A DNA stretch of 64,000 nucleotides, from assembly GCF_964355755.1 (NCBI RefSeq), contig NC_092675.1:22148912-22212911 (forward strand), written 5' to 3'. The position numbers and the translations under genes are program-made. Positions 11,485 through 62,893 of the stretch are shown here, one piece after another. The stretch is from Antedon mediterranea (taxonomy: Eukaryota > Echinodermata > Crinoidea > Comatulida > Antedonidae). A model generated the notes under the pieces. It was not told where the DNA came from, made no database searches, and saw only the letters and a program-made list of their open reading frames with translations. The stretch's first letter is position 1; each line of letters begins with the position of its first letter.

Positions 11485-11513
11485 TCTCACGGAATACTAC
11501 CGCGTCCGTGAGA
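11485..11513. other. Perfect 9-bp hairpin upstream of ZNG1
   Basis: TCTCACGGA (11485-11493) and TCCGTGAGA (11505-11513) are separated by 11 nt, in otherwise unique DNA about 0.7 kb before the ZNG1 ATG. Function unknown. Confidence 0.4.
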
Positions 11514-12222: not shown

Positions 12223-12304
12223 ATGTCAGACTCTGAGGATGAAATACCTGAATTAGTTGAAGCTGTCAACAAGATACCTGTCTCTATAATTACTGGATAT
12301 CTTG
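12223..12304 (+). CDS. ZNG1: ZNG1 exon 1
   Basis: Encodes the acidic N-terminus, the IPELVE motif and the start of Walker A (ITGYLG). Donor GTGAGG, phase 1. Confidence 0.88.
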
Positions 12305-15300
12305 GTGAGGTTTATTAATATGTTGAAAAGAAATTATGATTGAGAAATTAATTTCATATCTAATTGCAATCACCAACCCCATACAATAACAACTTCAATC
12401 TTGAACGGTGCGGCCACACACTGCAACTGCCACATACATAGCGAATAAAATAACGTATGGCATATGCACAAATTCAGCAAATGTGTTACCTTTCTTATTA
12501 CTTCTATTACAGGTGCTGGTAAAACAACACTTCTGAATTATATATTGACTGAACAACATAATAAAAAGATAGCAGTTATTCTCAATGAATTTGGAGAGGG
12601 TAAGACAGAAAATTGTTTTGCGCGGAGCCATCTGTGTTTGACATATTCTAGTCAAATCTCCCTGACTCTATGTTGAAAAATCTTCAAAAGACATAAATTT
12701 CTTTTAAAAGGCCCTAAATCATTTCTTAGCACTGACTCATTTTTCATTTTGAGGGTCACTTTTGTTAGAAACGCAGCTAAAGTGATGGGACCATCTCTTC
12801 CCCTCTATAAAAATGTAGGTGGTACATGTATCCACCAGAATCTGTGTCAGTGCTATTCTTTACGTAATTCTGAAAATCAAACTTTGTTGAAATATACTTT
12901 TTTTGCCCAGCTAATGTATAGTAACTATTTCATTCAGCCGTGGAAACAAACTATGTTCTAACATGGCCGAATGGCTAAAGGGGAGTTGAAAGGTGTCGCA
13001 TTTTGAATGGCGCTAGTATTGGTGTCAAGTTTAGGAGGAGATAGAGGACAAAATATTCTTTAGTGCTATTAATACATTTGTTTTCTTGATTCACAGGCAG
13101 TGCTGTTGAGAAGTCAATGTCAGTTGGCCAGTCAGGAGAACTTTATGAAGAATGGTTGGAGTTAAGGAATGGGTGTCTTTGCTGCTCTGTCAAGTAAATT
13201 TTGCAAATTGAAATATCATATCTTTGAAGGGAACCATTAAATATCATGTTACATGATGTGAAATAAACTAATCAAAGAATTTCGTAAAGAATTTATAATT
13301 AAAATGAATGAATATCTTCATTATTTTACTCTATATTTTAACACATTTTACAGAGATACTGGCATTAATGCAATAGAAAATCTAATGAAAAAGAAAGGCA
13401 AGTTTGACTACGTTCTTTTGGAAACCACAGGTCTTGCTGATCCAGGTAAAAATCAACATACTTTGCCCATTCAATACTCCGTCACCTGGCCAAACAACAT
13501 AATTGAATCAAGAAAAACATTTTCATTCAAATTAAAAAGGAACTTATTGCTTACGTGCAATCATACCTCCACACCTGCTCTAACTATTGCCAAACTATAG
13601 AGGACACTATACCAAATATAGATGTTGCTATTTAAAACAATCTATAGTAAACAATTGATATGCCATGGTGAATATGATTTGCAATAGTGGAAAATGCAAA
13701 TGTGCATTGTAAAAAATGTGCTGGCAATATATATATTTTAACCTTTAGTATGCAAAAGGGACGAAGTAGTAGAGCATTGATGGTAAATTTATGATTGTCA
13801 AAAGAATCTAGAGAAATTGCACTTTAAAACTCTGCTGAAAAGTTTTATTAATAATAGTATTCAAATATATATACAGTATTAATAATATTAAAAGTCAATA
13901 TTTATGTTATCCATTTTTGTTAGGACCCATTGCCTCAATATTTTGGCTAGATGATGGTCTGGGAAGTGAACTGTATCTTGATGGTAAGTACTTGCTATAT
14001 TTATTTCAAAATTATTATTTAAAATATTAAAAAAATGTAAAAATATATTTAATCAATGGAGACAACAAATTAAACTCAATTAAACTGGTGACTGATGAAA
14101 TCCAAGCACTTCATCATAGTAAGCACACTGGGAGATTATCCTGTAATCTTTTAAAATAGTGTACCAAATTTTGTATTATGCTTGTTGTGTATTTATGTAC
14201 AGCACAGTAAAATATCCCATATGGACAGACTAATCAAGCAATTTCAATCTTTTGTGAAACCAGTTTAATACTTGGACCACTTCACACACTCTGGATTTTA
14301 GTTTAATATTGACCTCACATTAGATAGGCCCAACCATTAGGCTTAGCTTTCAGTATGAACCCTGTTTACAATGGCCACAAAGTTAAACGCACATGCTTGT
14401 TTTATCTGTCTACAGGTATAATTACAGTTGTAGATGCTAAATATGGCTTGAAGAATCTGAAAGAAGATAAACAACCTGGCGTAGTCAATGAAGCTATTAG
14501 GTAATTTATATTTTAGTGAGCATGTGCACATGGTAGGAGCGATCAAAATAGCCTTCCCTAAACTGATTAATAATATTAAATTGGTTATAGTTACTGTAAC
14601 TATTAAAATGAGGAAAAAACATAACTGCAGACTATTCAGCCCTAAGCATGGCACCGGTATCATGAGTTTAGTCCTAAAAAAAATAACATACAGAGGTCTC
14701 AACGTGAACAAATATTCTAAAAGTTTGGCTAAATCATAGAGGGTGCTAATCATTCTTGAAAAATTCATCCAAGTAAAGTTGGTGCTATTTATTTTTTTAA
14801 TTTATGTCATCATTCCATTCTGCATATTATTTTCCCTTAATTATAAACATGGCGCCATTTCCGTTCGTAAATGGAACAAGTGTGGATCTAGCTTATGTGT
14901 GAGATGGAATATAATTCAATATATGTGTCCAGCTAGGTTTCATATGTTTTACTTATTGTTTTATATCAACATTTATTTCTTACAGTTTTATTCATGACTA
15001 AAATGTTATTTTAAAGATCATATTATTCTGAATAACATTTTATATTCCTAGACAAGTGGCAGTGGCTGATCTAATTCTTGTTAATAAGATTGACCTTGCA
15101 ACTAAAGAAGAAATTGCAAAATTAACATCACATATACAGTAAGAACAGCAAAACCTCTATTAAAGGGACACATTTAGGACTGTGTTAAAACATTTCCCCT
15201 TGTCCGTTTCACAGGAATAGAGAAATAGAGGTTTTCCTAAAAGAGAATCTCTACTGTGCTCATAAAATATCAAAATACATATACTGTCTTAGTTTTGGAA

Positions 15301-18300
15301 CTTTATAATGGTATATATAATAATATATTTCTGAACAATTATGGTAGCAAAGTAGAGACAGAAGCAGCAATTACAAAACAGAATCAAGTGTATAACAAGA
15401 ATAAAATTCCTTGTGTTTTGAGCACAAAGTTTTCATTAGAAAATTATTTTCAATTATGTCAATTCTGTAAATTTTGTTCAGTTAAATGTTAATTTAACAC
15501 TGGTCCTTGAAAAAGCTGGATCTTGTCTTGTGAGTTTACCCCAATAATACATTTCCTTTAATTATTTTTCTTTTTCAGAACCATTAATTCTTTTGCTGGA
15601 CTAGTTGAAACACACAAATCAAAGTAAGCTTATAACACGTTCATAAGATTATTCAATATGAAAATTAAAATATAGAATTATACTTATTATTGACCACTGT
15701 AACTTGATTGCTTGTGACATATAATGTGATAGTATGAGGTTTGCTAATGACAAAAAACTAAATTTGGTAATCGTAAACCTATGACTAATATTTTATTTTA
15801 TTCTTCTTTGTATGAATCGAATGTTATTCACTTCTGAATATTATTTGAATATCTGAATATATATATAAATCAAAAGGCAAATTACTGAAAAAAAAATGAC
15901 AATGCTTCAGTGGCTGGATCTCAATGGAGGTACAAAAAAAAAGCAAAAAGCTAAATCAAAACGATAAGTAAAACTGCCAGAAAAGTTAGCAGAGCTTTCG
16001 GGCAACACTAGCCCTTCATCAGTGCAAGTGAATATATATATATATATAATATGTTGAGTAATGAATTTTAGTGGATTATAATTTTTTTAAATCTTTTTTA
16101 GAACTTCAAGTATTATCATACAATATTTAAAATTTAGAGATTGAGGGATAATAATACTGTACTCGTATTTTAAAATAGTTTCTGTATTTCTATTTTATTT
16201 AGTGTGGACGTAGATGAAATTCTTGACCTTCATGCTTTTGATACAATGGGTAAGAAAAGGTGAGTACAAAGTTAATAAAGTATTTGTAGATAACAATTTG
16301 TTTGAGCAAATCTGAATTTCAGTTTCCATCATACCATTTTGCTGGACTGATCTAACCTGCTGTAACTACAGAAAGAGTATGCTGCCCTCAATAATGTTTG
16401 TAAATTGAAAACCATCAGATCTTATATCAACATGATAAAACAAATCAATTGTCGTATTCGAGTGTACCATTGAGTAGTTTTTCCGTTGAGTACTTCTTTA
16501 ACGAGTATTGAGCGTTGAGATTGTTCTTAACGAAAAAGCTTTCATTGTCAACGTTTTCTATTCGAATTTCTTTCTGTTGAGCACAAATTTACAATTCAAA
16601 TACTAAAAGTACTCAACGAATCTTTACGTTGACAACAAAAGTTCCCAATCGAATACGACAATTGTATACTACACATTATTGAATAAAAGTATCCATTTTT
16701 AAGACATTATATTTCAGTGTGCATAGTGAACAATTACATGTTGTGATGGTTTCCTATTCACCTTCACCTATAGAAGTTTTATATTTTCTTAACACAAACA
16801 AATATTGCTTGCCTCTCTATAGAATTAGGTATTGCGAAAAGTGAGTTTAAGTATCATTGGATTGGATGGAATACTTCAGAATTCAGAGTTCTTGTAAACT
16901 TTAAAGTTGGGGCAATAATAAATCAATTCATCAAATCATTTAATCTGAACGTTTTTAGGCCACTTGAACAACCAAATATGTAAATAGTACTCAATGCAAA
17001 CAGAATTGGAATGAAGATTATGATGTGCAGGCCTTGTCTTTTGAAAATTATAGGTTTTCTACAAATTGCACTCCTCAATACATTCAGGGATGCTGTAGGT
17101 GTGCTGTTTGTATTTTGGTGTGTAGAAGTTTACCAAATTTAAGCATGTTGTAAATTGCACTCCTCCAGGGCAGTTTAGGAGTGTGTTAGGCCAGTGATCG
17201 CACTTGCTCGCCTTAAAGGACAAGGCCTGGATGTTCTTATATGATACAATAATTATATTTAACCACTGAGCTAGAAACCCATATATTTTAACTATTTTAA
17301 TAATATAGAAACTTTCACTTTATTTAATGCATTTTTTATACCTGATTTTTTAAAAAGTGATTGGACAGCACTTGAGAAGAGAGGAATTTCTGACCATCAT
17401 AATATTGATCAGTCTGTTACCACGGTAACATTCACTGTACAAGGCTCTATTAATTCAGAAGACCTAGATAACTTTATACAGGTAAGATGAACATACAGTT
17501 AACTTTAATGTTGGATAGCCCTTCCAGTTCACTCATTTTCTTATCCTTGTTGCACCATTCTGTGCGAAATAAAATTTGTTATAAAACGTCTTAGTAGATT
17601 CTCGTCATTTGATTGGAGGATATTTGGTCACATGATATTCAATAATTACTACACTTTTGTTAAAAGGAGATGTGTTATAAAACAAATAATGAATGTTATA
17701 TTTCCATGCAATGGAACAAATAATTTCATTCAGTGAAAGATGAAATGTTTATTTTCACCTCATGAAATTATTTGTACTAATGGGATTGAAACTTTGAAAC
17801 ATGACTTCACTCTCATTATATGAAGTTTGTTTTATACAGTCAACTCTCCCAATACCGGACTCTCTGAAAACCAGAAACTCTCCCAATACCAGACTTTTTT
17901 TGAGGACCAAAAGGTCCCAAATTTATTTTTACCATTAAAAACACATTCCGAATACCAGACTTTCCGGAAAACCAGACTTATTTGGCCGGCCCAAAGGTGT
18001 CCGGTATTGGGAGAGTTGACTGTACTATGTTATTTAAAAATAATCAGTGCATCTATTGGTTTTCAGAATATAATGTTTTGATAAAAAACACCAGCAATAT
18101 AAGTTGGATTGACATAAAACATATCACTTCCCATAAATGTTATAATTTAGAGAGATGACTCCTTATGTTAAACTAATATAAATTTATATATTATAATTTT
18201 TGTTTATTTTTTGTTTCCATTGAAGTTTAATTGTTCACCATTTTCCCAAAAATAACAAGTAAGAATCTTGTTGTTGATACGTTAATCTTTTGAATGCACC

Positions 18301-21300
18301 CAAAAATATCCTTTTGAAGAAAAGCAGTGGTTTGATATGTCTGAAACATTTTGTTTGTCTATGTTATTGAGAAGATGAATAGGAAGACATACTGAAAAGT
18401 AATCCGCCTGAACCTGATGTAATGTAATATTAGATAAACAATCTACATATTTATTTATTAAAGTGTAGATTGTTCTAGTCTTATTTATAAGCCATCGGCC
18501 AGATTGTTTATTTCAATTTGATGTGGCACTTTTTCTTGGTAGGCCTACTTGAGGAGCTTTTCTTGTTGGCTTTTAGGGTTAAGCTAAAGGTATTATAGCA
18601 ATACAACTTAATGACAGTAGAGGCACGTAAAGGCCTACCACACCTTACAGGAGATTTCTTTGTCATTAAATTCTAAATGAGGTGTAATGTAGCGATTAGT
18701 TTAGTAGTCATCCTGCATACATTAAAGGTCATGGAGGTCACTTACACCTGAGCAATGAAGCTGTCTCTATCGCTATGAAACTGCTGTCCATCGCCCTGGT
18801 TAACTTGATGAATTTTGTTTTCTTGAGCTACAGTTTCCAGGCTAAGTTAACCAGCTGGAGTTCATAATCGCCAGTAGCTGGTAGGGGTTAGGCTCAGTAC
18901 CGCACTGGGGTTCAAGCTCACCAGCTAGCTGTGGTTCATGCTCGCCATTAGCTGGAAGGAGTTAGGCGCTGTAGCCATCTGGGGTTCAGGGATGGAACCT
19001 TTGTCAGAGAACTCACTGCTATTTTTCTGACTGTTTTTTCCAATTCAATAGAATTATGGTGTATTATAATGGTCATTTTTATGTATATGAGTACCATTTG
19101 AGGAGAGGCCTGTTGACCTCTTGCAATGTATAGCCAGAGTGCTCACGTCTACTTTTTGTTCTGATATTAGTGTTCCAAAATTACATTTTATCATTGTTAA
19201 CTAGCCCAAGTAATGAATCACAGAAAGCAGTTGATTTAAAATACATACTTTCTATTTACTCCGGTGTGCATCTTTTTAAAGCTCAGGTACAAGCATGAAT
19301 TTTAAATTTAATATTTGGTTAATTGTACATAAATCAAATATTTGTTAACAGAAATCGAGACGAAAAAACATGAATTTCACTTAATATGGTCAAATACAAA
19401 ATTTGGCAAAATTCTTCCATAAAAACCAGGAAGACTTTTTTTCAGTAGTTAGGTAGTTAACCTAATGTAATAACATGTCTGGTGACTCCCTAGACGGTGA
19501 AAAAAGATGGTGGATATACGGTGGATAATTTTTGCTATAGCATGAAAATAAAAATCTGAAGTTGAATAAAAATATCAGAAATGTAATATTCAAGTTATAT
19601 TACCTATATTTAGTCATCTGATAACATTTTTTACCGCACCGTTTATTTTTCATAGCTTTTTAAAATGCCTCTCTATTTACAAAATGTGTGTACAAACGAA
19701 TAGAGATTTTACTGTGTAATTTGAACTATCCCCCCACTGATAAGAAAGTGCTTATTTTCAACAAACTCGTGTAACACAAATAAAATCCCAAAAATTATGA
19801 AACATAGGGGAAACTATAGATCGATAATTATTGGAATGTATGATCAATAGAAATTTTTGCCCGCACCTGGCCTTTAAAATCTAATTTTACCATCTGTTTT
19901 CCATATTTTTACTTTGCTAGGAGCACAAATATTGTAATAGTTTTCATTTGCATTTATTTCACCCTTTAGCATTTTCTTTGATGTATACATACATTCCTAT
20001 TTCAATTAATGGTATCTTTCACAACTTTTGTTTTAAAAATGTTCTCTGCATCAATAAAATTCCTTGGTGTACTCATGTTTCTTATTCTTTTCAATTACTC
20101 TGATCTGTCAACAAACCTTACTTTGGTGGCAGGTAGAGTTTGTTCTCAAAACACATGCCACTGTAAACTATATCAACAGTAACCACCGCTAAATGAACAA
20201 ACCATGTTCTGTACAGGAGTCTATTAGTGAGCCCGATTGGTTGATGCTCAAATAAGGAAGCAGTGTGTTGTCTGTTGACAGGAGGCTTTGATGGGCACCT
20301 GTCAGTCATTTTCATATTGTTTGGTTCATGAATGTATTTATTAGACCTCAAGAGATTGCCGCAGACCCACTCACAGATTTTAGGTTTCAGATGCGCTTGA
20401 ACAGGTGAGAAGAGATTTACGAAACAGTATCAAAAGTTAATGATGTGCTGAAAATGTTGATTCGCTTTAATCATCTCAATCTGGAAACAAAATAATTACA
20501 TTTAATAAATGTTATACTGAACAACTATAATTAGTGCAATAGTTATATTAAGAAAAAAGAAAGACTAATTCAAGATATTCTGTCCACTTCCTTGTGTGCT
20601 GAATAACTCCAAATAACCGGTTTTATTTTAAATTTGATTTGTATATAACAACAAACTACAGGGTTATTAAAACAAACACATTATATTTTCATGTATATAT
20701 ATTAGTTTATAAACATAATTTTACAATGAATTTATATTTATTGTATTTATTTGGTGTACAACGCAATAACAACCCAGTGTACAATGATTTCATTTGCTTA
20801 GTCAACATTTTTCCACAATAGAAATATATATATATATATATATATATAAATCCAAAGGCAAATTACTGAAAAAAAGATATATATATATATATATATATAT
20901 AAACAAATCAGGCAAATATATATACTTTCACTTGCACTTATGAAGGGCTAGTGTTGCCCAAAAGCTCTGCTAACTTTTCTGGCTGTTTTACTTTATCGTT
21001 TTCGCTTTTTTTTTTTGTATCTCCATTGAGATCCAGCCACTGATACCCACAGCATTGTCATTTTTTAAGTATTCTGCCTTTGAATTTGTATATATATACT
21101 GACTGACTGACTTGCACTGATGAAGGGCTAGTGTTGCCCGAAAGCTCTGCTAACTTTTCTGGCTGTTTTACTTCTCGTTTTGATTTAGCTTTTCGCTTTT
21201 TTTTTGTATCTCCATTGAGATCCAGCCACTGATACCCACAGCATTGTCATTTTTTTCAGTAATTTGCCTTTGGATTTATATATATATATATAAATAAAAT

Positions 21301-51300: not shown

Positions 51301-54300
51301 ATATTTAAAAAAACAAAGGTTCAGAGAAAAGGAGAAGAAACATAAAGAAAGAGAGAAAATCGATCCAATCAATTAAATTGTTTGGGTGGTAAAACATTTT
51401 TCGCTCAACACGATTGATATCGGTATACTATAGCGCCGCCAATTGACAAATATAACTTAAGTGACGTATGCGACCGGTTTGTCATTATAGCTTTTGATCG
51501 AACTTTGTGGATTATCTCTTTTCATTGACAAAGTTAATAGTTATTGATGGCTTGAAAACTTTGACCAGAAACCTTTTAAATCTATATCCTTTTAACGTCG
51601 AAATGATTATCCGAGGTTGAACGGATTTCAGTTGATTGAATGGTTTGTTTTGTCCAAAGGACATGGTAGCCTAATATTTTAATTGAGTCGTTGATTTAAA
51701 CATCAATATTCTAATGCGAAACACAAACATGATTATACGTTGACTGTATAGCATGTTTTACCAACGTGTTAATATAGTGGTAATTATGGGAGAATCATGT
51801 TATCAACAAATTCAAGAAGAAATTGACTTTTTGTTCTCACGAATGAACTACAAAATGGGAGCTGATTCCATTTGTGTATAGAAACAAAGGTTTATTTGTA
51901 CATCATCATTCTGAAATGCAATCACCTGCAGATTAGATCATAACGTGTTTATGTTCATAGCATTGGCATGACCATCTAAGGCGAAGATTCGTCTTTAATT
52001 AATCTAAACAAAGATTATCATTTCTTGTTATTTGAGCAGCGCAAAAATATTTTCTAATTTCACTCAGTTTATCTTGCAGAATAACAATGCCCTTTGGACC
52101 CAAATGTACCCATATGTTACTCGTTGTTAACGCGTCATTAATTATCAGTATATGACGCGTTGTAAATTCAGAAGCGTGTGAGTAGTTCCATGTGTTTTAA
52201 CGTCTGTCATCGTAACGCGTCATTAAATGTGATGATAACGCGTCATGATTGTGCGGCGTAAATTTAATTTATCATAACATTCTATTTCGTGGCAAGCTTC
52301 ACTTCACATATTGTAATGCATGGTGCATGTAAACTTGTTCACTTGTTTTTCGTAACTAATTGAAATTGTGTAGACTTTTTTTAATATCGATACTATAACA
52401 CTAATGGCAACTGGGCCTTGGTGGTATTTGGGTATCAAATATCTAGACTTTTCCTTCTGCTGAAGAGTAATGCTTGCAGACAGGGATTCTTTCTCCTCAC
52501 AGTATATTAAAGGGTACATCCGAGTTTAACATTTTTGTTTAAATACCACAATAGTAAAGTACAGCCTGCTGAAAAGGGCCTTTGTAGTTCATTAAAGGAT
52601 AGTTATATTGTTATTGAAAACAAAACCACTTCGATTAATAATGTTGGTTAACTCCACTTATTTTTCGACAGCGGTAAAGGAGGACGTATGTCGTAAACAG
52701 GCCCTTTAAAAATGTGTTGGATTTTTCATAATGCAATAACGAACATTTACACTACTTTATTTATGTAAATTTGAGGCAGTTTTTTCCTAGGCCTATAGAA
52801 AAATATATAGAAAGAAATGTATGCTAAGTCCGATTTGCACGCATCGAACATGGTCTCATCAGATTTATTTACACTAAAGATTGGTGTCGGATTTGGAACC
52901 CCTATAAATCTAGTCACTAATCCTATTTAGAATAATAAAAACATAATACAATACCTTAATTAGCCAGCTGCCTTTGCAACTTAATTGACTGTTTTGTGTT
53001 ACATAATTGATGAATGTACATTTAATAGTCTGTTACTTTAGGTAATTACCTCTTTTTTCTCTCTTTAGCATCAGGAATATTTCTTATATAAGGAATATTG
53101 CACTATTTGTTGTAGGAAAGCCGATACATTTAGACATAAAGATATATAAATGTGTGTATTAATAATAAGTACCGTATGAATTGTATAGCGAGATTCACAA
53201 GATGGCTTATTTCCCTGTCCAAACGGCCCCAAACTGTGTAAATCAAGGATCGGTCTATTCAGCCATGCAAGAAAACATCGAAACTAACTAACTCACATTA
53301 ATTATACAACAACTGTGTGTACACTACAACAATAACAATCAACTTAATACAATACTTAATAGACTATATAGGCCTATTTTATACAAATTATTAAAAATAA
53401 TTAAAAACTATTAGTAATTTTAATAGTGAAATAATTAGTAATCATCAAGGGCTGGAAATGACAGGTCATACTCTACTTAGAGTGACTCCAAAGAAGAACA
53501 TTTGTATATTAATAATGAGTATTGTATATAGCCAACAAGTGAAAATAAGAAGTTAACGATTATTTAAATACAGAAATGTTAACCGATATTAGCGTAGTAT
53601 TCCTAAATGCATACGGTAACCATTCGCAAGATAGCAATATTAAGAAATAGACAATTATTGTGTGCATATAAGCTTGATTCACGTCGGTTTGTTTCTAATT
53701 CAGTCGATCTAAACCATAACTTTCAATTTTTTTGTGATTTTTACAAAAAAATATTTATAAACTTTCTTACTTCTTTCTTAACAATTTTCACGGCTGCTGA
53801 ATAAATGTTGCGAAACGAAAGAAAAATATATAAAAAAGAAAGCAGAACATGTCATGATTCTTTGCTTTTTAAATGCAAATACAGTTTGATTGAAGCATGG
53901 AATGATGCTGCAGTATGCAAGTGACACGATTTTTTCTTAGTTCTGATTGGTTGCGTAATTTTTTATCGCAAAAAGTTACTCTAATTCTAACTGCTGTGCG
54001 AAAAAGATTCATATAGACCCTAAATAAAATCTCTGAAAGAGGCTTAATGCCACCCTTGTTGGTGAACCCATAGTGAAGAAAAGAATAGTGTATAGCCACT
54101 AACCATTCAAAACTAAGTAAAAAAATCACTCTTCCTTGGTATAATGATATCATACACAAAATCCCTTAAAAATTTAGCATAACTATCATAACAATAAAAA
54201 AAAAACATGGAGATACAAACAAATAAAAAAAAGTTGGATTGTTAAATGAAACCGTTTAGGCTATTTTGTCTTTTTATATAACTGAAATCATTTATTATTT

Positions 54301-57300
54301 CTGTTCGTTTTTTTTTTCTGTAGAAGTAATAACCCTATCTTTGATTTATTCATTTTCTGTTCAAAGTTTAATTATGGTAAAAAGTATTCTGTATAAAATC
54401 TTCAAATCAAAAACAAATTTTCTGTTTTTTAAACACAAAACAGTTTATTATATTCGACTGAACATCTGCGGACCCTCAAAAGTCAAACAGTGTTTCTCTT
54501 CTTCACCGCAACATTCTCAATTTGTTTGGAGTTATTTTCTTGACAAAGAATTGTAAGAGTTTTACCTAATCGGTTATGAAATGATACAACAGTTACAATT
54601 ACGTTTGCTTTTAAGATTTAGTTTTGCAGCAACTTAAGGCCGATACCGCCACTATTTGCTTTACGTTTTACAAAAAAAGTTAAGATAATTTCCCCAAGGA
54701 GAATTGATATTAGGGGATCACTCTTCAATTCAAAACTTTCATCATAATACTATTTATCAAATCATTCGAAAAGAATTGTTTTGAGTTGTAGTTGCTAGGA
54801 GCGATTTTCTAGAGTTTGGTCGATTACCTCAGCTTGTATTCAACATTTAACTCTTTTACTCCAGGTGTTAATTTCTAATAGCTATCCATTTGGCTCTCTC
54901 TTGTACTACAACTTGCTAGACAAATATTGAGAAATGCAATTGACCGCAAGTATTCTTTTTATTCACATGTAATATATAAACTAGGTGAATATATCAATTA
55001 CCTAGTTGTAATAATATCAATCGAATTTTTTGATGAACCCGGAGGCTAAAGTGAGCATGTATTATGTTTAGTAACCTCACTAGTGCGACCTTTTTAACAC
55101 CACGTAAAATTATAGTGCATCGTTTCGTTTCTCGTTTTCTTATAGTGAAGAGGTAACCCCGGGCAAAGGTTTTTGTGTGAACTTATAGCGGTCTCACAAT
55201 GCCGTTTTTATTTTTGATATTAAACGTTTTCAAAATAATACAAAGCTGACCTTAATCATCATTGTAGAAAAGTCTGCTGACATTGTTCTTGAATAGTTGT
55301 AGGTAAGATGCAATGTAATCGTACCCATGTTAATTTTCACATACCGCTTCGAAATGAGAAAGAAAATATGTTGGCGTACCTAGTGGCTTTTGGTTTTGTC
55401 GGCTGTATCAACTTAGTTAGTGTACCCGAAGGGATCTCTTACATGGTTTTTGTTTTGAATTACAATGCTCAGTGCGTTAATGGTCAGTTTTCCTGCCGTT
55501 TCGTGTGTGTCCAAGAAACTTATCCGTGGTCAGCGCTAATGGATTGTATGCGTTATCGCTATTATGTTATTTCTTAGGTGCGAAACGTTCCTTATTAAAA
55601 TAAAAACAAGATAAACGAAACCAACACACATGGCTGTTGACAATTGAACTATAACTTTTTCATTAAGCAGTTAACAACACATTTTAAGACACTTAAAATG
55701 TGAGCATTGGGGAGGAGCAAAATAAATTTATTCGAAGTCTTAGTCTATGATTTATAAAATCATAAAACTTAATAACCAGAGTAATGATAAATATAACTAA
55801 TAAACAACTAAATAAAATAAATTTTAATCTAACCAAAGTCTTGGGTATAGAAATTATTATATTAAAAAAATAAATAACGAGAGTTAAACATGGAATAATA
55901 ATCATTACAAATGATAATAGTATGTTTGTGTTTTTATTGTTTGTTGTTTTAGTCATTCTAGTTATTTATCGTTTTCTTATAGTTTGGAAAATGTTGTTAT
56001 TTTTAACTAATTACGCATCGATTTTCAAAATAGTAGGCCTACAGTAATACATTTTATCGCACTTTGGTGTTAGAAACAACTACATAGTGATGAGTTAATT
56101 GACAAGTGATTCAAGTTTATAATATAAAGCTTATAGATTTTAGGTATATTTACACATTAAAAGTGTTACGATGATTACAATATATAATTGATTTCAATAT
56201 CTGTCTGTTTGTGTATTTAAACGACAAGGCTATATTTATTCTGAGCGAAAGAAATAATGCGGAAAATGAACACTCTTCTACTTAGCCAGGACACCTGTGG
56301 CACAGAGCCTTGGTCCTTTGTAGGGTGTTATTGCTTTTAGGCAACGTGTTACCTGAAGAGTAAATAGATGAAATATAAAAGAATCCATTGAGAGGTATTA
56401 TCTGTCTTTATTTGATTTGAATTAGCAGATTAATGAATGCAAACGCTCCCTTCGGTAAAGTACAAAGTTAAGCAGTCCCAAGGACCACAATAGCCAACAT
56501 TTAACAAGACAAACTTCTCTATTCATTACGCATCAATTGGGCTTTTAACTAATTTCCTTCTGAGTGGAGGCACTAATGTTAGTGGTGCATTTGGGTGATT
56601 TCAATTAAAGATGGACGGTAAAGGTGTTAGGCTAAATTGCTTTTAATCCGCCATGAGTGTGTGATCGCTAGGCCATCATTTATTCAATAGAGCATCGTAT
56701 AGTAACTTGATGAACTAGTTAATACTAATACTCAAACCTACTTAGAAGCTTTGGTAAACATTATATCATGGCTATATATATATCAAAATGTCAACGATAT
56801 CGCATGGATATCGCGCGTATTACACATGAAAACATTACACCCAGCGTTTCTTACCAATCATGGTGTTTAATTTCCTTATAAGGTATGATACATTGTACAG
56901 TATTGCTATTAATATATTTCAGTTTACATTAATTGTTAATACTTAAATATACAGAAACATTAGACTATATGAGATATGATCCGTTATTATTTAAATTAGA
57001 CAAATAACCCTACGCTTTATTAGGACATCCGTTTAAAGTCATCAATATCAACAACAACTCTTAAACTAACCAATGTTCACTTGGTATATGCATGGAGAAT
57101 CTTATTTCTTCATGGTGTAATTTCACTCTTCCCTGGTATGAATACATAGGCCTATACTTGTTGAATGAAAAGAATATTTTCTCAGTTGAAAAATTGATAA
57201 TTGATAAAGGTCAATATCATTATAATATATGCACGTTTTCAACAAATGCAAAGGATTCATTGTTTGTTTTAATCTCCAACTTCCAAATTATTTTTATAGT

Positions 57301-58961
57301 TTTGTTTTTTTGGTAGTGGAAAATGAATTACAATTCCCCATGTGCCAAGGTTTCATAAGAATTCATTCCAAACAAAAATACAATAACACCAGTATTATAA
57401 ACTGCAATGCATATATACAAAATAATGACAAAACAATTCTTAATTAATTATAATATTAATAATAATTAAAGATGTATTGTCCCCCAAAAACAGGAAAAAT
57501 GAAGATTAATTAAATCAGACTTTGAATATGTTATTTTGTAGTTTTAATAAAGTTAATCACTTCCATAGAAAAAAACGAAAAAAATAATGTTTTCACTTGT
57601 AAAATGACAAAATAAATGGTTAAATTCAACTAAAAATCCATTGGCTGGCAGCCAATTTGACAATTTTTGCTTTAAAATACATTTTTTTTTTCGATCCAAT
57701 TTTTGGTCAAAGTGGATAACTATTATGTTACATTAAAATGGAATATTCAACAAAATTTGTTTTAAGAATTATTTTTTTCGAGGGGACAATACATCTTTAA
57801 TAGACTAGAAATCAACGACACCCTCCCCCGCCTTATACTGAAATATCCCTCCTGTCCGAGGATCTGGTCACTATAAATAAAGACAGCGAAGAAATTGAAT
57901 TCATTGACTGTTATTAATGAATTGTTGGGAAAGTAATGAAGATATAAAAAGTTGTCAGTTACCGTATTTTCCGTCCCTAGCGGCAACGTGATCTGAGAAA
58001 ATCGTTTCCTTGTTAATAATCATTGTTCTTTCATTTAGAAGTTTTCACACGTTTGCATTGCGCGAGTCCGCTAACGAAGTTGACATTTCGACATGGCTTC
58101 GTGCGGTGTATTGTATGTCTTCTTATATACCTTCTTATATATTTATATCAAAGAAACCATTTACGCCTGTAATTATGATAATGTCTATTATTATCAATAA
58201 TTGTTTCTAATAATTAATTGGTTACGTTGGTTAAGTATCTATCTTTCGGAATTCGATAAATAAGAAAAATGTTTAGATATTTCTTTTAAAGGAGGGGACG
58301 GGGGACAATATTAAAGATCATTTATTACTATACCTTTTCCTTTTCTATAAGGCTATAGATACCCCAAAATAGAATTTTATTTGTAAATTGTCTAGACACA
58401 TTAAAAAAAAAAAAGATCATTAGCCTATAATAATATAATTATGTATTTATATATTACGGTATAACATTACAATTAACATTACTTTTTAAAATAATGATTT
58501 TATCATATAAGTTTGCTTTGGCATACTTAATGTATTGTTTGGTCTTTTTCATGGTTTTATGTTGTTGTTGGCCTATAGGCCTAATGTACTTTATTTGAAT
58601 TAACATCGGACCACTGAATATCAGTTCTTTTTTAATGAAGGATCTGCACATAAAATAGATTGACGGGTTTGAACCGACATTGATATTCTATACAAAATAC
58701 CTACAGAACCAGCAATTCATAGTTTTCACAATTTTCTATTTTGAGATATCATTGTCATTGTTACTGTAGTAAGATGATTTATACGATCATAAGATCAAGG
58801 CCCGTAAACCAGATTTAACATCTTACTTCTAATAATGTTATTCTGTGTTTTTTTAAAATGTTAAAAATACTATATTTTTGTAAAATGTTTTAATTTTTTT
58901 TAAAGGTAAACATCTGACGAAGTCTATATTGTTGGAATCTTTTAGTAAACTTGTTAGATGA
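12223..58961 (+). CDS. ZNG1: ZNG1/CBWD zinc-chaperone GTPase (COBW domain protein), 13 coding exons, 353 aa
   Basis: Joined exons: 12223-12304, 12513-12599, 13097-13193, 13354-13445, 13924-13983, 14416-14500, 15052-15138, 15579-15623, 16203-16259, 17358-17481, 23808-23873, 50620-50743, 58906-58961. The total is 1062 nt; every junction is GT-AG and keeps frame. The ATG has an in-frame TGA at 12211-12213. Landmarks: Walker A GYLGAGKTT (25-33), zinc motif GCLCC (82-86), Walker-B-like region and TTGLADP (106-119), NKID (179-182), LDLHAF (219-224), and a C-terminal CobW_C-type domain. The family uses GTP hydrolysis to deliver zinc, in animals to METAP1. At 353 aa it is somewhat shorter than the vertebrate protein (about 395), mainly at the ends. 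The N-terminal partner motif reads IPELVE (8-13) where vertebrates have CPELVP. FoxD lies 2.7 kb downstream. Confidence 0.93.
12305..13096 (+). other. ZNG1 introns 1 and 2 (around exon 2)
   Basis: 208 and 497 nt, AT-rich, with no recognisable element. A tRNA-like phrase (TGGCCGAATGGCTAAAGG, about 12963) has no matching B-box. Confidence 0.7.
12513..12599 (+). CDS. ZNG1: ZNG1 exon 2
   Basis: Begins after CTATTACAG and completes Walker A (AGKTT). Ends with ILNEFGE before GTAAGA. Phase 1 at both ends. Confidence 0.93.
13097..13193 (+). CDS. ZNG1: ZNG1 exon 3
   Basis: Encodes residues 57-88 with the zinc-binding GCLCC (82-86). Acceptor TTCACAG, donor GTAAAT. Confidence 0.93.
13354..13445 (+). 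CDS. ZNG1: ZNG1 exon 4
   Basis: Encodes [20 protein letters not shown] and LADP, the Walker-B and switch region. Acceptor TTTTACAG, donor GTAAAA. Confidence 0.93.
13924..13983 (+). CDS. ZNG1: ZNG1 exon 5
   Basis: A 60-nt exon encoding [19 protein letters not shown]. Acceptor TTTTTGTTAG, donor GTAAGT. Confidence 0.93.
14416..14500 (+). CDS. ZNG1: ZNG1 exon 6
   Basis: Encodes [11 protein letters not shown] and the following NEAI region. Acceptor GTCTACAG, donor GTAATT. Confidence 0.93.
15052..15138 (+). CDS. ZNG1: ZNG1 exon 7
   Basis: Encodes [17 protein letters not shown] with the guanine-specificity NKID. Acceptor ATTCCTAG, donor GTAAGA. Confidence 0.93.
15579..15623 (+). CDS. ZNG1: ZNG1 exon 8
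   Basis: A 45-nt exon encoding [14 protein letters not shown] between a CTTTTTCAG acceptor and a GTAAGC donor. It corresponds to the poorly conserved linker before LDLHAF. Confidence 0.88.
15869..16029 (-). mobile_element. Short dispersed repeat, copy B (hammerhead-like family)
   Basis: In ZNG1 intron 8, flanked by (TA)n on both sides. The core CTGATGA...GCCCGAAAGC is intact on the - strand (15987-16022). Confidence 0.8.
16203..16259 (+). CDS. ZNG1: ZNG1 exon 9
   Basis: Encodes [18 protein letters not shown]. The donor at 16260 (GTGAGT) keeps frame with exon 10. A second donor-like GGTAAG ten bases earlier does not. Confidence 0.9.
16446..16664. mobile_element. MITE with perfect 16-bp terminal inverted repeats
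   Basis: CAATTGTCGTATTCGA at the left end and its exact complement at the right, 219 bp in all, in ZNG1 intron 9. The interior also has partly complementary GTTGAGTAC/GTACTCAAC blocks, so the whole element can fold. No coding capacity. Confidence 0.85.
17358..17481 (+). CDS. ZNG1: ZNG1 exon 10
   Basis: Encodes the start of the C-terminal domain, including [14 protein letters not shown] and NFIQ. Donor GTAAGA, phase 0. Confidence 0.92.
17837..18022. mobile_element. Pogo/Tigger-like MITE with TA target duplication
   Basis: 186 bp with perfect 24-bp inverted termini beginning CAGTCAACTCTCCCAATACC, bounded by TA on both sides (17835-17836 and 18023-18024). The CAGT...CTC terminus and TA duplication are typical of pogo-class Tc1/mariner elements. 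Degenerate copies of the terminus (ATACCAGACTTT) recur inside. Confidence 0.85.
18851..18990. repeat. Imperfect direct repeat, about 75-bp unit
   Basis: Two diverged copies of CCAGCTGG...GGGTTAGGC...CTGGGGTTCA blocks, noticeably richer in G and C than the flanks. Confidence 0.5.
20849..20876 (+). mobile_element. Terminal fragment of hammerhead-like repeat
   Basis: Only the 28-bp end (ATCCAAAGGCAAATTACTGA) is present, between two (TA)n tracts and in inverted orientation to the next copy. Confidence 0.6.
20931..21088 (+). mobile_element. Short dispersed repeat, copy C (core mutated)
   Basis: Same family as copies A, B and D, on the + strand. The core reads CTTATGA and GCCCAAAA, so two otherwise invariant positions are lost. 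Confidence 0.8.
21111..21277 (+). mobile_element. Short dispersed repeat, copy D (intact hammerhead-like core)
   Basis: In tandem with copy C, same orientation, about 180 bp apart, with TA microsatellites between and after. The core is described at 21117-21152. Confidence 0.8.
21117..21152 (+). ncRNA. Hammerhead-ribozyme-like core in copy D
   Basis: CTGATGA (21117-21123), one unpaired A, stem II GGGC/GCCC (21125-21128 with 21136-21139), GAAA (21140-21143), then stem III AGC/GCT (21143-21145 with 21149-21151) and A at the expected cleavage position 21152. All core bases are present. Stem I is not evident from the flanks and stem II has one extra base, so activity is uncertain. Confidence 0.4.
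21405..21660 (+). mobile_element. Second repeat type with hammerhead-like core, flanked by (TA)n
   Basis: About 250 bp between two (TA)n tracts. It differs in body sequence from copies A-D but carries the same kind of CTGATGA...GCCCGAAA segment. No reading frame. Confidence 0.55.
21550..21597 (+). ncRNA. Hammerhead-ribozyme-like motif, type I, short stem III
   Basis: CTGATGA (21559-21565), stem II GGGC/GCCC (21567-21570 with 21574-21577, one extra T), GAA (21578-21580), a 2-bp stem III (AC/GT, 21581-21586) and C21587 as the predicted cleavage base. Partial stem I pairing is possible (CAC before, GTA after, then TT/AA). Very short stem III is typical of the hammerheads in Penelope-like retroelements and retrozymes. 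Confidence 0.45.
23808..23873 (+). CDS. ZNG1: ZNG1 exon 11
   Basis: A 66-nt exon encoding NLIWEKNV through LRLK, a strongly conserved segment of the C-terminal domain. Acceptor TTTTTTTTGTAG, donor GTAGGT, phase 0 on both sides. It follows a 6.3 kb intron. Confidence 0.92.
24242..24519. repeat. 139-bp tandem duplication
   Basis: AAAATGCATTATCATAAAAA starts at 24242 and 24381. The two copies are almost identical (one A indel), implying a recent duplication or an assembly artefact. Each ends in (CAAT)n. Confidence 0.9.
24830..24915. repeat. Dispersed repeat, inverted partner of 60345-60430
   Basis: About 80 bp including CACGCCATGTGACCCACA and GGAATTTATTTAGGTGTTAT, matching the reverse complement of 60345-60430 with few differences. 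A weaker relative is at about 17605-17640. Confidence 0.7.
25590..25830. repeat. Degenerate CGCCGA-rich segment
   Basis: Repeated phrases such as TTGCCGAC, TTAGCCGAAC, TTCGCCGAG and CGCCGACAACCAATTTC, with a 14-base C run at about 25766. It reads as a decayed short repeat rather than a gene, although one + frame stays open for 101 codons. Confidence 0.4.
26008..26150. repeat. Two adjacent microtandem repeats (19 bp x3, 13 bp x3)
   Basis: GATTTGATACGAATTTCTT three times, then AATTATGTGTCCC three times 45 bp later. Confidence 0.85.
30690..30830. promoter_or_regulatory. Candidate enhancer: cluster of GATTAA/TAATC sites
   Basis: At least six GATTA/TAATC homeodomain-type cores in 140 bp, two ATCGAT motifs and a CACGTG E-box (30738). 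Position within the intron next to FoxD makes regulation of FoxD plausible. Motif clustering alone is weak evidence in AT-rich DNA. Confidence 0.25.
31253..31338. promoter_or_regulatory. Candidate regulatory site: palindromic AGATTAAG and TTAACGTTAA
   Basis: A 16-bp perfect palindrome AGATTAAGCTTAATCT (31253-31268) is followed within 70 bp by ATTAACGTTAATCA, itself bracketed by GCGCG and CGCGC. Speculative. Confidence 0.2.
31915..32055 (-). repeat. Fragment of TTAAAGATGTATTGTCCCC MITE family
   Basis: Contains TTTAATATGCCATTTTAATG and TTCACTTTGACCAGAAATTG blocks, matching the complete element at 57466-57800 in reverse orientation. Confidence 0.55.
35231..36030. repeat. Tandem repeat, about 120-bp unit, six copies plus a partial
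   Basis: The phrase ATTTGGTTTGGTCACTTCTC recurs at about 35252, 35371, 35492, 35616, 35742 and 35883 (spacing 119-141 bp). The last units carry an extra GAAGGCGTTTACGTGAAAAC block, present at about 35857 and 36005. The open frames here are repeat artefacts. Confidence 0.92.
37250..37640. repeat. Cryptically simple CAT/ATC-rich tract
   Basis: Highly biased to ATC, CAT and CGTC triplets without a strict period. It explains the His/Ser-rich open frame at 37426-37773. Confidence 0.75.
40077..40156 (-). repeat. Fragment of TTAAAGATGTATTGTCCCC MITE family
   Basis: ATTGTCCCTTGAAAAAAATA then TTTTTAATATGTCATTTTAATG, matching the right end of 57466-57800 inverted. Confidence 0.6.
40330..40405. repeat. 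Dispersed repeat related to 45540-45680
   Basis: TACAGCTCACTATGTCGGTC, GGTAAACACTAACTTGAGC and ACGCGACTGCAGCCAT are shared with 45540-45674, which carries an extra palindrome insert. Confidence 0.7.
45540..45674. repeat. Dispersed repeat with 41-bp palindrome insertion
   Basis: Compared with 40330-40405 this copy is interrupted at the GGTC tract by a hairpin whose 14-bp arms are perfect (45580-45593 and 45607-45620), with copies of TCGGTCGGT on both sides. Confidence 0.75.
47765..48200. repeat. Dispersed element with GTTAGCAAGATAAC block and GGTCAATA repeats
   Basis: Starts CTCCGCCTAAAGAGGTTAT, then GTTAGCAAGATAACA, CAATCCGGACCAGGATCC, and ends in six irregular (A)GGTCA(A)TA phrases at 48095-48200. 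I recall similar sequences in many marine invertebrates but cannot verify that here. No coding capacity. Confidence 0.5.
50620..50743 (+). CDS. ZNG1: ZNG1 exon 12 (26.7 kb downstream of exon 11)
   Basis: Encodes [15 protein letters not shown], the VVQELYD helix and CTIVFIG, which continue exon 11's RLK exactly as in the family. Acceptor TTTTTCGATTCAG, donor GTAAGT. The frame upstream of the acceptor is also open but shows no family similarity and is treated as intron. Confidence 0.9.
50774..51006 (+). mobile_element. Truncated TTAAAGATGTATTGTCCCC MITE
   Basis: Begins TTAAAGATTTATTGTCCCCC and runs to the GGTCAAAGTGAATAA block. The right terminus is missing. It lies 30 bp after ZNG1 exon 12. 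Confidence 0.65.
57466..57800. mobile_element. Complete MITE with about 19-bp terminal inverted repeats
   Basis: TTAAAGATGTATTGTCCCC at the left and its complement at the right enclose 335 bp without coding capacity. Reference copy for fragments at about 7215, 31915, 40077 and 50774. Confidence 0.85.
58906..58961 (+). CDS. ZNG1: ZNG1 exon 13 (terminal)
   Basis: After a TTTTTTTTAAAG acceptor it reads [18 protein letters not shown] and then TGA (58959-58961), counting the glycine split across the junction. This matches the family's ending (IGRNLD...L...F type) and completes a 354-codon frame. No AATAAA follows closely; ATTAAA variants lie at 59068 and 59169. Confidence 0.82.
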
Positions 58962-59383
58962 TGTGTCTTGGTTGTCGCCATCTACTGAAGCAACGACTTG
59001 GATTACCACGTCACGTCTTTCGTCCAAATAGCTCACGTTGATCAAACGACTGTATCGGTTTTCCAAAATTAAATTATTGCACACATAACGCAAATATGAA
59101 CAAAATGTCTGATGTTTATATTCAGTTCAATAATTGCTTTTTTTTACGGAAACTTACGCCTATGTATAATTAAAAATATTTTGCCGTTAGCATTTCGTAA
59201 TACAACTTAATTATAAAATGAAATAATGATTTGGTGGCTGTAGGCAATAATAGGACATATCGTTTAAGATTTTACAACGGATTGATAGACTCCAGTCGTC
59301 TCGTCTAGCAATGTGTTGACGTATCTGGACATCAAGCGCCGCGGAACGCCTAAACATTTTGTGTGTGTTTAGGCTAAACTATA

Positions 59384-59518
59384 CTAAAGCTCTGTCTACA
59401 CTATCAAACTAGACAAAATGTTAGTGATATACCCCAATATGGTAGTGATATGACATCATCATGTCTATATACACATTTTTTTATCACATAAAATTTGTTA
59501 GTGTAGACAGAGTTTTAG
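59384..59518. mobile_element. MITE with CTCTGTCTACACTA inverted termini
   Basis: CTAAAGCTCTGTCTACACTA and its near-complement at the other end bound 135 bp. Pairing has one or two mismatches over about 24 bp. The superfamily is not determined. Confidence 0.75.
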
Positions 59519-59736
59519 GCCTACAATCCGAAAAATGTCTAGTTTATCAAATTATCACACATACGGAACTGCATCCAAATATCTTTATTCAAAAGTTAAA
59601 CCAAAATAATTTGTTATGGTTTTGTTTTAACACACCAGATTCTCGGTACTAATAGTAGATTTCTCCGTTATCATAGGGAAATCTCTTCCGCCTATAGTAT
59701 CATTAGACCATAACATAATCCGTCACCATGCATGAT

Positions 59737-59832
59737 ACAGCACCACATGGGATACTGTATTACGGAATACAGCACCACATGGGATACTGTATTACGGAAA
59801 ACAGCACCACATGGGATACTGTATTAAGGAAT
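59737..59832. repeat. 32-bp unit repeated three times
   Basis: ACAGCACCACATGGGATACT starts at 59737, 59769 and 59801 with near-perfect identity. Confidence 0.92.
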
Positions 59833-60344
59833 GTTCCTATATTACTGGGAAAATAATGGTCACCCTTTCTGTCAAGATTATAAGCCTGAGACGTCAGCAA
59901 TCGTTAATTACCAAAGGAAAGTCAAATTTCCAGTTTATGGACGAACACTGTACATAATCTTGAATCTTTTATTTTTAATTTGTCGATTTTATGCGATCTT
60001 GACTTAATAAAACAAATAAACAAATGTCAAATATCATTAAGGCTACATTATATAGAACGATAATATTTATTTTCTTACTACAGTGTTATTAACAACACAT
60101 AATCTTTCACGTTACCATAAATGGACGAAATCAAGAAGATAATTTATAAATAGACGTAAAATGTTAATTGTGTGGTTGTGTTTTACCAAGTCCCCGTTAA
60201 TCCAACTACTCGTTGAAACCGTATCATGTTCATTGAAGATCAACATTTTATTACAATAAATGGATATTTTTTTTTATCCCCACGAAATCGATAGTAGTAG
60301 AGTAGTAGTAGATCGTTAGTATATAAATATTATTTATTAAATAG

Positions 60345-60430
60345 AATATATTTAATAACACCTAAATAAATTCCTGTGTTTGATTGGACGAATGTGGGTC
60401 ACATGGCGTGCAAGTACGCACTATTAAATA
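60345..60430. repeat. Dispersed repeat, inverted partner of 24830-24915
   Basis: AACACCTAAATAAATTCCTG and GGGTCACATGGCGTGCAAGT match the reverse complement of the ZNG1 intron-11 copy. Confidence 0.7.
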
Positions 60431-61199
60431 ATATGCATTTTGGCCTTAAACACATGATTTACCACATTAAATTTGTCTTTTTTAGACCTCAAAATAATCT
60501 TATTTTAGTAAAAATGTTGTAATATTTCTCTGATTTAATCAACATATCATTATGGACTTATATATCGCCAACAATATCGTGTGTCAGTACAAATATAATG
60601 ATATGCATTGAGGCCAACACCTGATTTACCACAGTAATTTTCTATCTTTTTTTTTTTGACCCCGAAACAATCTTATTTTATTATAAATTGAATCAACATC
60701 TTATTAAAAAGTATATCCTTTCTACTCCCATATGAACACTCTTACATAAAAAATAATCACAGTTAAAAGTAAAGAAGAGAAATGCGAGTTCACAATACAC
60801 CTTGCTTTTTGTTGGGTGGGGGGGGGGGGGATTGGGGATACAATGAGATTACATTATGTTATTCCATAATTATACTATATATTACATGGTGTCTTTCTTT
60901 AAGGACGCATTTAAAGATATATTCTATGAAAAAAAATTGTAATTTTGTTTCAATTCTCCAAAAATTGGATCGAAAAACCTGGTTAAATGTAACTGTTTAT
61001 TTCATCCAATACATTTTGAAAGTTCAGTCTCGAAAAAAGTTTTTGCTATGCATGGTGGCGCTGTTGTCAACAAGTAACCGGACAGTTTACTGCTATATGC
61101 TTTATCTTATTACGAACTCATGAATATCAAATGAATAGCACTGTTTGATTGTCCGCCTGTATCGATTTAGAATTTAAAAAAAAACCTTAGCGGTTGTCA

Positions 61200-61500
61200 T
61201 GCCTGGACTTAGCACCGTTTACGTAGTCTTTGTTTGATGAGCAAATCACCTAATTATCTAAAGGGGCGTTCCAGGCGGCGAAGTACTTTTGATATGGTAA
61301 TGAGGCGGACGAAAGGCCAGCTAATGGCTGAGCCTGTGCTCACGTGCTCTAGCCAAGTTCTAACTCTGACACATAAAGTGAAGATAGGAAGTTATCAAGC
61401 ATGCGACAGCCGCATTTATGTTGACTTCTCTCCGTTGATTAGAGTGGGTGGTAAACAGTCGAGATTTTCTTCTTCATTTTTATATGAACGAATTAAAACC
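61200..61500 (+). promoter_or_regulatory. Candidate FoxD proximal regulatory region
   Basis: A stretch 180-480 bp before the FoxD ATG is clearly richer in G and C than its surroundings, with a CACGTG E-box (61340-61345) and a phrase AGGCGGCGAAGTACTTTTGA. No TATA box found. An 80-90 codon open frame runs through it and could be an upstream ORF, but nothing supports translation. Confidence 0.3.
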
Positions 61501-61678
61501 TAGCTTGACATCTGATTGAAATTATATTTTGTCGGGTGTTCGTAACTTCTACTTGGGTTGAATTTTTTTATTTCCATAACTTCTGGGCTGGAACGAAACC
61601 GATTAATTTTCGCTTGTCGGACGTCCGGTAAACCATCTCTCAGAGGAAACTGACCAATTTGTCAGCTATCCGTAATTG

Positions 61679-62893
61679 ATGTTACCACAGGTACAAAATA
61701 GGAGCCCGAACGCATCGCCTGACTTACCAGACATGACTATCATTGTAACCGAGAGTGCAATGGATGAGGAGGCTAAGCCCCATACTCTAAGCCAAGATGG
61801 ACTTGCATTGGAGAGAAAAATAGATAACATTATCAATGATCATTCTATCGATTCACCCCATATAACAGTGGATGATGATTGTAGCGACAGTGAAGATTTC
61901 ATAACTTGTGAAAAATCAATCGACATGAAGGAAGACGAACTTGATAAAGAAATGAACGATGTAGAAGATTTTAAAGATGATGATGATATTGCTAAAGAAC
62001 GAGATAAGGACGAACAAAATACCGGAGACAAGAAAAAGTCGAACTTGGTGAAACCACCTTATTCATATATTGCTCTTATTACCATGGCTGTGTTACAGTC
62101 TCCACAGAAACGACTTACTTTAAGTGGAATTTGTGAGTTTATTATGAACAGATTCCCGTACTACAGAGAAAGATTTCCAGTTTGGCAAAACAGTATTCGG
62201 CATAATCTATCCTTAAACGACTGTTTTGTGAAGATACCAAGAGAACCAGGTAATCCTGGAAAGGGTAACTATTGGACCCTAGATCCAGCTAGTGAGGACA
62301 TGTTTGACAATGGATCTTTTTTGCGAAGGAGAAAACGTTACAAACGTCAACAACACGATATTATGTTAAGGGATCATCCGTTTATGACCCATCCATACGC
62401 TCATCACCTAGGCCTAGGTATTCACCACGGGATTTCACAACATCACCCCATGATGCCGTATCACTATATTTCACCTCTACCACCACCGGTCCCTCTACCT
62501 CTACCGCCTACATTAAGTGGTATTTCGCCGTTAACCATGAGTTTCTTGCCTGGTGCACCGTGTACAGTTGGTTTGCAGTCAGTACCTGGATCAACATTGA
62601 CAACAAATAGTAATAGTACCTCAGCCTCTCGACAGGGCTTTTCAATAGACAATTTACTTGGACTGAAAAAATCAACTTCGCAGTCATCATCATCTACAAC
62701 ATTATCGACGAATAGTGTAAATTTTGCGTTTCGTCCGCCTTCCAGCTTACATTCACCGCTTCGAGCTATAGGTAGCCCTCACGCTGCAAGCGCCTTTACA
62801 GCCCCTGTGAACTTTGCTTCAGATTTGGAGAAATGCAGGCAGTGTGTACAATGTACAGGCGGCGCTGCCTCGCTTTGTACGTGGAGATGTTAG
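61679..62893 (+). CDS. FoxD: FoxD-class forkhead transcription factor, single exon, 404 aa
   Basis: The ATG at 61679 follows an in-frame TAA at 61673-61675. Residues 60-120 are strongly acidic. The forkhead DNA-binding domain spans about 125-222 ([61 protein letters not shown]); that last stretch is diagnostic of the FoxD class. A His/Pro-rich linker follows, and then FSIDNLLG (321-328), an EH1-like motif expected to recruit Groucho/TLE. The last 19 residues contain five cysteines. Lack of introns fits FoxD genes. FoxD factors act in the nucleus, often as repressors in neural, mesodermal and neural-crest-like specification. Class assignment is firm; deuterostome invertebrates usually have one FoxD gene, so finer orthology is not meaningful. 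Confidence 0.95.

Follow-up and report, generated by a model that had tools for sequence, protein, structure and literature searches.

The 64,000-nucleotide window analyzed here (C6:22148912-22212911 of the crinoid Antedon mediterranea, in a genome of 354 Mb in 18 contigs) contains ZNG1, a member of the CBWD family, followed in tandem by FoxD, and we found that the CpG content of ZNG1 changes abruptly 1 kb past its exon 11, at 28% of the gene length. Introns 11 and 12, which lie beyond this point, differ from the rest of ZNG1 and resemble the surroundings of FoxD and also some intergenic DNA (CpG-rich intergenic sequence at 8-12 kb of the window makes this more cautious wording necessary). The reading we favor, with a probability of about 0.6, is a genomic regulatory block around FoxD in which ZNG1 is a bystander and the enhancers are putative. 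ZNG1/CBWD is a zinc chaperone that delivers zinc to METAP1, and vertebrate FoxD genes have roles in neural and neural crest development.

The CpG step inside ZNG1

The observed-to-expected CpG ratio (o/e) is 0.40 over the part of ZNG1 that holds exons 1-11 (12,223-24,544) and 0.97 over 25,356-58,905, with FoxD itself at 0.84. A single change point is best placed at 25,150, positions 24,544-25,356 lying within 3 log-likelihood units of the optimum (twice the log-likelihood difference is 135). The excess of TpG plus CpA drops together with the step, from 1.24 to 1.12, in line with a loss of CpGs on the left side through deamination of methylated cytosine. The features concerned, in window coordinates, are the following.

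12223-12304, 12513-12599, 13097-13193 and 13354-13445, + strand: ZNG1 exons 1-4 (tblastn and splice model)
13924-13983, 14416-14500, 15052-15138 and 15579-15623, + strand: ZNG1 exons 5-8 (tblastn and splice model)
16203-16249 and 17369-17481, + strand: ZNG1 exons 9-10 (tblastn and splice model)
12223-17481, + strand: ZNG1 exons 1-10 as a block, CpG-depleted gene body, o/e 0.39
17482-23807, + strand: ZNG1 intron 10, 6,326 bp, CpG-depleted, o/e 0.41
23808-23873, + strand: ZNG1 exon 11 (tblastn and splice model)
23874-50619, + strand: ZNG1 intron 11, 26,746 bp, CpG-preserved from about 25.15 kb onward
50620-50743, + strand: ZNG1 exon 12 (CobW_C)
50744-58905, + strand: ZNG1 intron 12, 8,162 bp, CpG-preserved, o/e 0.92
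58906-58961, + strand: ZNG1 exon 13, including the stop codon (read by eye, joined into the splice model)
58962-61678, + strand: ZNG1-FoxD intergenic gap, 2,717 bp, CpG o/e 1.07, probable site of the FoxD promoter
61679-62893, + strand: FoxD, single coding exon, first in-frame ATG at 61679, stop ending at 62893
25150-64000, no strand: part inside the window of a CpG-preserved, putatively germline-unmethylated domain that continues to at least C6:22252911, 41 kb past FoxD

We scanned 294 kb around the locus in 2-kb windows. To the left of the step (n = 107) the median o/e is 0.46 and the longest run at 0.70 or above is three windows; to the right, where 37 of 39 windows were counted (two consisting entirely of N were dropped and two with 350 and 650 N were kept), the median is 0.98 and the minimum 0.60. 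At C6:22.300 Mb, a 5-kb probe gave 0.47, so the CpG-preserved territory ends or is interrupted before that point. The territory measures 79 to about 126 kb, contains FoxD and, judging from its composition, is probably unmethylated in the germ line.

Gene bodies for comparison came from 37 kb in five genes (four myosins and one DOCK), chosen by flanking ordered same-strand family matches and without knowledge of expression, and from one 10-kb UreG locus. The interior stretches of the five genes have o/e values of 0.35, 0.38, 0.41, 0.71, and 0.57. A Hox intergenic control gave 1.16, and pooled Hox and Fox pieces, coding sequence included, gave 1.12 and 1.09. Methylation in another echinoderm is reported to target gene bodies, and introns most of all (PMC12550476), and Ciona is described as having sharp borders between methylated and unmethylated DNA, with genes that are nearly all methylated or all unmethylated (PMC3827831). 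Against such nearly all-or-none genes, one with a CpG-depleted first quarter and a CpG-rich remainder is unexpected. We tentatively propose, at slightly less than even odds, that ZNG1, a housekeeping gene, is split by chromatin state, exons 1-11 forming a methylated body and the rest having been absorbed into the germline-unmethylated territory of FoxD, with a boundary of less than 1 kb.

The spliced ZNG1 model joins 13 exons at AG/GT sites, starts with the ATG at 12223, stops with a TGA whose last base is 58961, and encodes 346 amino acids; the acceptor of exon 10 is uncertain, as is a possible small extra exon ahead of it. The product matches Pfam cobW (E value, 2.2e-50) and CobW_C (8.5e-13), carries the Walker A motif GYLGAGKTT and the CxCC motif CLCC, and is 60% identical to a hand-entered human ZNG1 sequence over 335 aligned positions. 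ZNG1 appears to be single copy, because the sole other cobW match in the genome belongs to a UreG gene, and a second ZNG1 copy was rejected on these grounds. This urease accessory gene, apparently split by introns, lies at C3:32770620-32770871 (TIGR00101, E value of 6.7e-11 on a 25-amino-acid piece). The forkhead domain of FoxD is identical to that of rat Genesis/FoxD3 at 95 of 105 positions, counted on the alignment, and scores 222.8 bits to FoxD3 versus 161.4 bits to FoxC2. Pairwise comparison with 15 other forkheads of the genome gave at most 71% (16 were fetched of 35 other matches, one of them without a readable domain). NCBIfam had no match for FoxD or for one ZNG1 exon. On this forkhead identity the gene is assigned to FoxD and would be the developmental transcription factor at the center of a regulatory block. 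Linkage of FoxD to FoxE was rejected, the nearest other forkhead matches on C6 being 4.4 Mb away.

An earlier note on this DNA had called introns 11 and 12 exceptionally long and repeat-poor. Their lengths hold, and they are repeat-poor in relative terms, since repeats common to the 294-kb neighborhood cover 6.9% of intron 11 and 5.2% of intron 12 versus 11.4% overall. "Exceptionally" needs more care, as a myosin gene has 24 kb, in one or several introns, between one match that ends at profile position 81 and another that starts at 175; the myosin matches offer too few adjacent exons for an intron-length distribution, and these genes served as CpG controls only. A third long intron, intron 10, was absent from that note. 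Intron 11 contains tandem arrays, including those at 24242-24523 and 35343-35850, and a genome-wide repeat search of 24000-43999 found dispersed elements near 24.15-24.36, 24.80-24.95, and 40.31-40.40 kb. This search covered 20 of the 26.7 kb of intron 11 and scored 39 of 5,911 candidates, and it may therefore miss repeats that are old or very common. Transposon bloat is not favored as the cause of the length of intron 11, given its self-repeat coverage of 6.9%; its open frames, inspected without Pfam, include nothing notable that would point to a nested protein gene; and a structured RNA gene as cause of the long introns was rejected for lack of any Rfam match at gathering threshold.

Age of the ZNG1-FoxD linkage

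FAM151, ZNG1, and FoxD stand in tandem in the window, all on the + strand, and 2,717 bp separate the ZNG1 stop from the FoxD ATG, which bears out the earlier description of ZNG1 and FoxD as same-strand neighbors 2.7 kb apart. The only KANK match of the genome (KN motif) is also on C6, 195 kb upstream of ZNG1, and three of the four DM-domain matches are on C6 as well, at 16-20 Mb. The open frame with the KN motif has a further match to a solved Liprin-beta-1/KANK1 fusion chain, in a part judged by eye to be the KANK1 coiled coil. With about 27,000 genes, the chance that a given gene is the next same-strand neighbor is about 2e-5, or about 2e-4 if linkage on the same chromosome is granted, and that of KANK within 195 kb is about 1.2% given the chromosome and about 0.1% genome-wide. 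The gene count reported for a feather star is 26,838 (PMC7351957).

The order reported for human 9p is FOXD4, CBWD1, C9orf66, DOCK8, KANK1 (PMC4306731), in which CBWD1 is adjacent to FOXD4 as the earlier note had stated, and that given for Xenopus tropicalis downstream of Dmrt1 is Kank1, Dock8, Cbwd3, a Cyp2j6-like gene, and FoxD5a (PMC12467463). Around vertebrate FOXD3 the published order is KANK4, USP1, DOCK7, ANGPTL3, ATG4C, FOXD3, ALG6 (PMC4422726). Since vertebrates have both KANK1-DOCK8-CBWD-FOXD4 and KANK4-DOCK7-FOXD3, the ZNG1-FoxD linkage is most likely older than the ambulacrarian-chordate split. The proposal that the pairing predates the separation of these lineages is therefore well supported, with the pair found here and on human 9p, one gene apart in frog, and KANK nearby. 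As far as one genome and published vertebrate orders allow, the evidence supports ZNG1 and FoxD as neighbors by descent and a remnant of a linkage group of the deuterostome ancestor that also held KANK, DMRT, and DOCK. The human CBWD1-FOXD4 pair presumably has the same head-to-tail order and orientation as the pair described here. We also take human KANK4, MYSM1, IPO13, FAM151A, FOXD2, and FOXD3 to lie together on 1p31-34, where the part confirmed in print is KANK4-FOXD3; if these positions hold, the locus would correspond, in unduplicated form, to the human 1p and 9p regions.

Several genes lie in the interval between KANK and ZNG1. They include a gene of the lipid-transfer/apolipoprotein type (Vitellogenin_N and VWD), a second gene of this type recognized by eye (the piece tested had no Pfam match), importin-13 (E value of 8.3e-12 versus 1.7e-5 for transportin-3, with an Xpo1 match), an exon read by eye as MYSM1 that has no Pfam match, and open frames without an assigned name. 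The two lipid-transfer/apolipoprotein-type genes are in opposite orientation at C6:22.045-22.100 Mb, and the second contains a 1,807-codon open frame that is repetitive. The upstream neighbor of ZNG1 inside the window is FAM151.

4989-6461, + strand: FAM151 (Menorin), large 3' coding exon (Pfam Menorin, 3.1e-49; Menorin_C, 2.1e-11)

The FAM151 open frame begins with a minisatellite, which is probably noncoding. This minisatellite, with VTIRRGVTIRVW repeats at 4933-5187, lies ahead of the large exon; as at least two of its frames stay open, gene-calling software could mistake it for coding sequence. Local repeats also cover about half of the intergenic stretch between FAM151 and ZNG1 (8000-12000).

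A proposed FoxD regulatory block and its alternatives

In the regulatory block that we favor, cis-regulatory DNA of FoxD would lie on both sides of the gene, its 5' share occupying ZNG1 introns 11 and 12. Within ZNG1, 1 kb beyond exon 11, the territory of FoxD would start sharply, and this would put the last two introns in it and outside the CpG-depleted, putatively methylated body of ZNG1. Breaks that part the intronic elements from FoxD would be harmful, and ZNG1, an unrelated zinc-chaperone gene, would stay attached as a bystander for that reason. ZNG1 directly neighbors FoxD both here and in human, with one gene between them in frog, and human FOXD3 has been described as lying within a genomic regulatory block (PMC2745767). 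The earlier proposal that FoxD enhancers in the ZNG1 introns hold the pair together gains only indirect support, from the CpG state that introns 11-12 share with FoxD and from the FOXD3 block, whereas the frog Cyp gene and the planarian Fox genes speak against it.

These and several other observations weigh against a block. The frog pair is split by one Cyp gene, and in the caecilian Rhinatrema Cbwd3 is followed by Pgm5 and Tmem252, the next two frog genes being placed on other chromosomes (one is named "D4 dopamine receptor-like", which leaves its FoxD identity ambiguous) (PMC12467463). Planarian Fox genes have no conserved microsynteny (PMC7859237). DOCK matches occur on C4, C5, and C6, at 5.7 Mb from FoxD on the last; hence, it is not a close neighbor here and was rejected as the missing one. 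On the side of composition, 15 of the 107 2-kb windows to the left of the step have an o/e of 0.74 or more, and the intergenic stretch between FAM151 and ZNG1 (8000-12000) reaches 1.0-1.8 per kb. Two-kilobase pieces of the control genes range from 0.16 to 0.95, so individual pieces can be high, and the 10-kb UreG locus on C3, at 0.86, indicates that some gene loci are not CpG-depleted. Rfam at gathering threshold found no RNA family in the window. CpG-rich DNA is thus not special to FoxD, and low germline transcription of introns 11-12 may be all that their composition reflects.

Another explanation of the step is early termination, in which germline ZNG1 transcripts mostly stop after exon 11 by intronic polyadenylation near 24-25 kb, gene-body methylation ends there, and exons 12-13 are used rarely or in some tissues. 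The change point 1 kb past exon 11 is where such termination would put it, and the hexamers AATAAA/ATTAAA number 10 in 23874-25400, that is, 6.6 per kb versus 3.3 in the rest of intron 11 and 3.9 in intron 12, which also counts against the block. However, four of the eight non-overlapping hexamers listed fall in the tandem repeat at 24242-24523, and the end of CobW_C is encoded by exons 12-13, whose splice sites are intact. We consider this explanation rather unlikely, and it is in any case compatible with a regulatory block.

Passive retention is somewhat less plausible still. Here, ZNG1 and FoxD would be ancestral neighbors never separated in a slowly rearranging genome, the introns would do nothing for FoxD, and the CpG pattern would reflect low germline transcription. 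KANK has stayed near, at 195 kb, though it has no obvious link to FoxD, three of four DM matches are on the same contig, and the Hox cluster looks complete; the genome may therefore be slowly rearranged overall. Local order has changed nonetheless, since DOCK is 5.7 Mb away and several genes stand between KANK and ZNG1, but the ZNG1-FoxD adjacency persists both here and in human, and a single gene intervenes in frog. Finally, a chance or convergent adjacency here and in vertebrates is very improbable, because the same-strand probability of about 2e-5 to 2e-4 and the nearby KANK, which is separate evidence, outweigh the fact that only one invertebrate genome was examined.

Other genome features and meaning of the boundary

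Matches to the families searched (forkhead, cobW, homeobox, DM, KANK, DOCK, and myosin) were found on C1-C11 only. Feather stars have eleven chromosomes. The Hox cluster, at C2:7.79-8.21 Mb, is complete-looking, with 13 homeobox matches of which 12 homeodomains were read; assigned by eye from class motifs, they comprise Hox1-8, 9/10, and three 11/13 genes, one of them inverted, and this gene set points to an ambulacrarian. Four homeodomain matches fall in a single open frame of 3,044 codons at C8:12532856-12535357, which presumably resembles a ZFHX-type gene in a giant exon. Myosin-head matches at C3:19.6-25.1 Mb (19 at profile positions 342-409 and 12 at 563-641), mostly on one strand, appear to form an expanded myosin array of about 5.5 Mb. 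The G+C content of the window, near 32%, and the set of twelve Hox genes are similar to those of the feather star Anneissia japonica, for which a G+C content of 33.22% and hox1 to hox11/13c on two scaffolds have been reported (PMC7351957), and they make a feather star the probable source. A search for mitochondrial COX1 gave no match.

Like the genomic regulatory blocks described for PAX6 and FOXD3 (PMC2745767), the locus pairs a developmental transcription factor with an unrelated gene in synteny of long standing, and its bystander introns may lie within the territory of the target; unlike them, it belongs to an invertebrate, and the evidence consists of CpG composition and synteny. The primate CBWD1/FOXD4 and CBWD2/FOXD4L1 loci place the same two gene families in one neighborhood (PMC4306731, PMC10496407), but the primate copies include segmental duplications, whereas there is one ZNG1 and one FoxD here as far as compared. 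The ancient metazoan microsynteny pairs of Irimia et al. 2012 are likewise gene pairs kept over very long times, and some Fox genes are among them according to a paper citing that work (PMC7859237), so the ZNG1-FoxD pair may already be tabulated there. The literature titles and abstracts listed on CBWD, FOXD, and KANK synteny, which did not cover Irimia et al. 2012, contained no description of an invertebrate ZNG1/CBWD-FoxD pair.

Both the pair in vertebrates and the block model are already known, and the part that a specialist would not be expected to know is the CpG boundary inside the bystander gene. The linkage most likely dates the vertebrate CBWD-FOXD4 neighborhood before the ambulacrarian-chordate split, and if our reading is true, the ZNG1-FoxD block would be among the older ones readable from CpG depletion. 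CpG depletion would then show where a regulatory block invades its bystander, from a single unannotated genome and with no comparison species, and a CpG boundary inside one gene would be a cheap route to further blocks in single genomes. The 34-kb stretch at 25-59 kb is the place to look for ancestral FoxD enhancers, which makes the ancestral regulation of FoxD testable.

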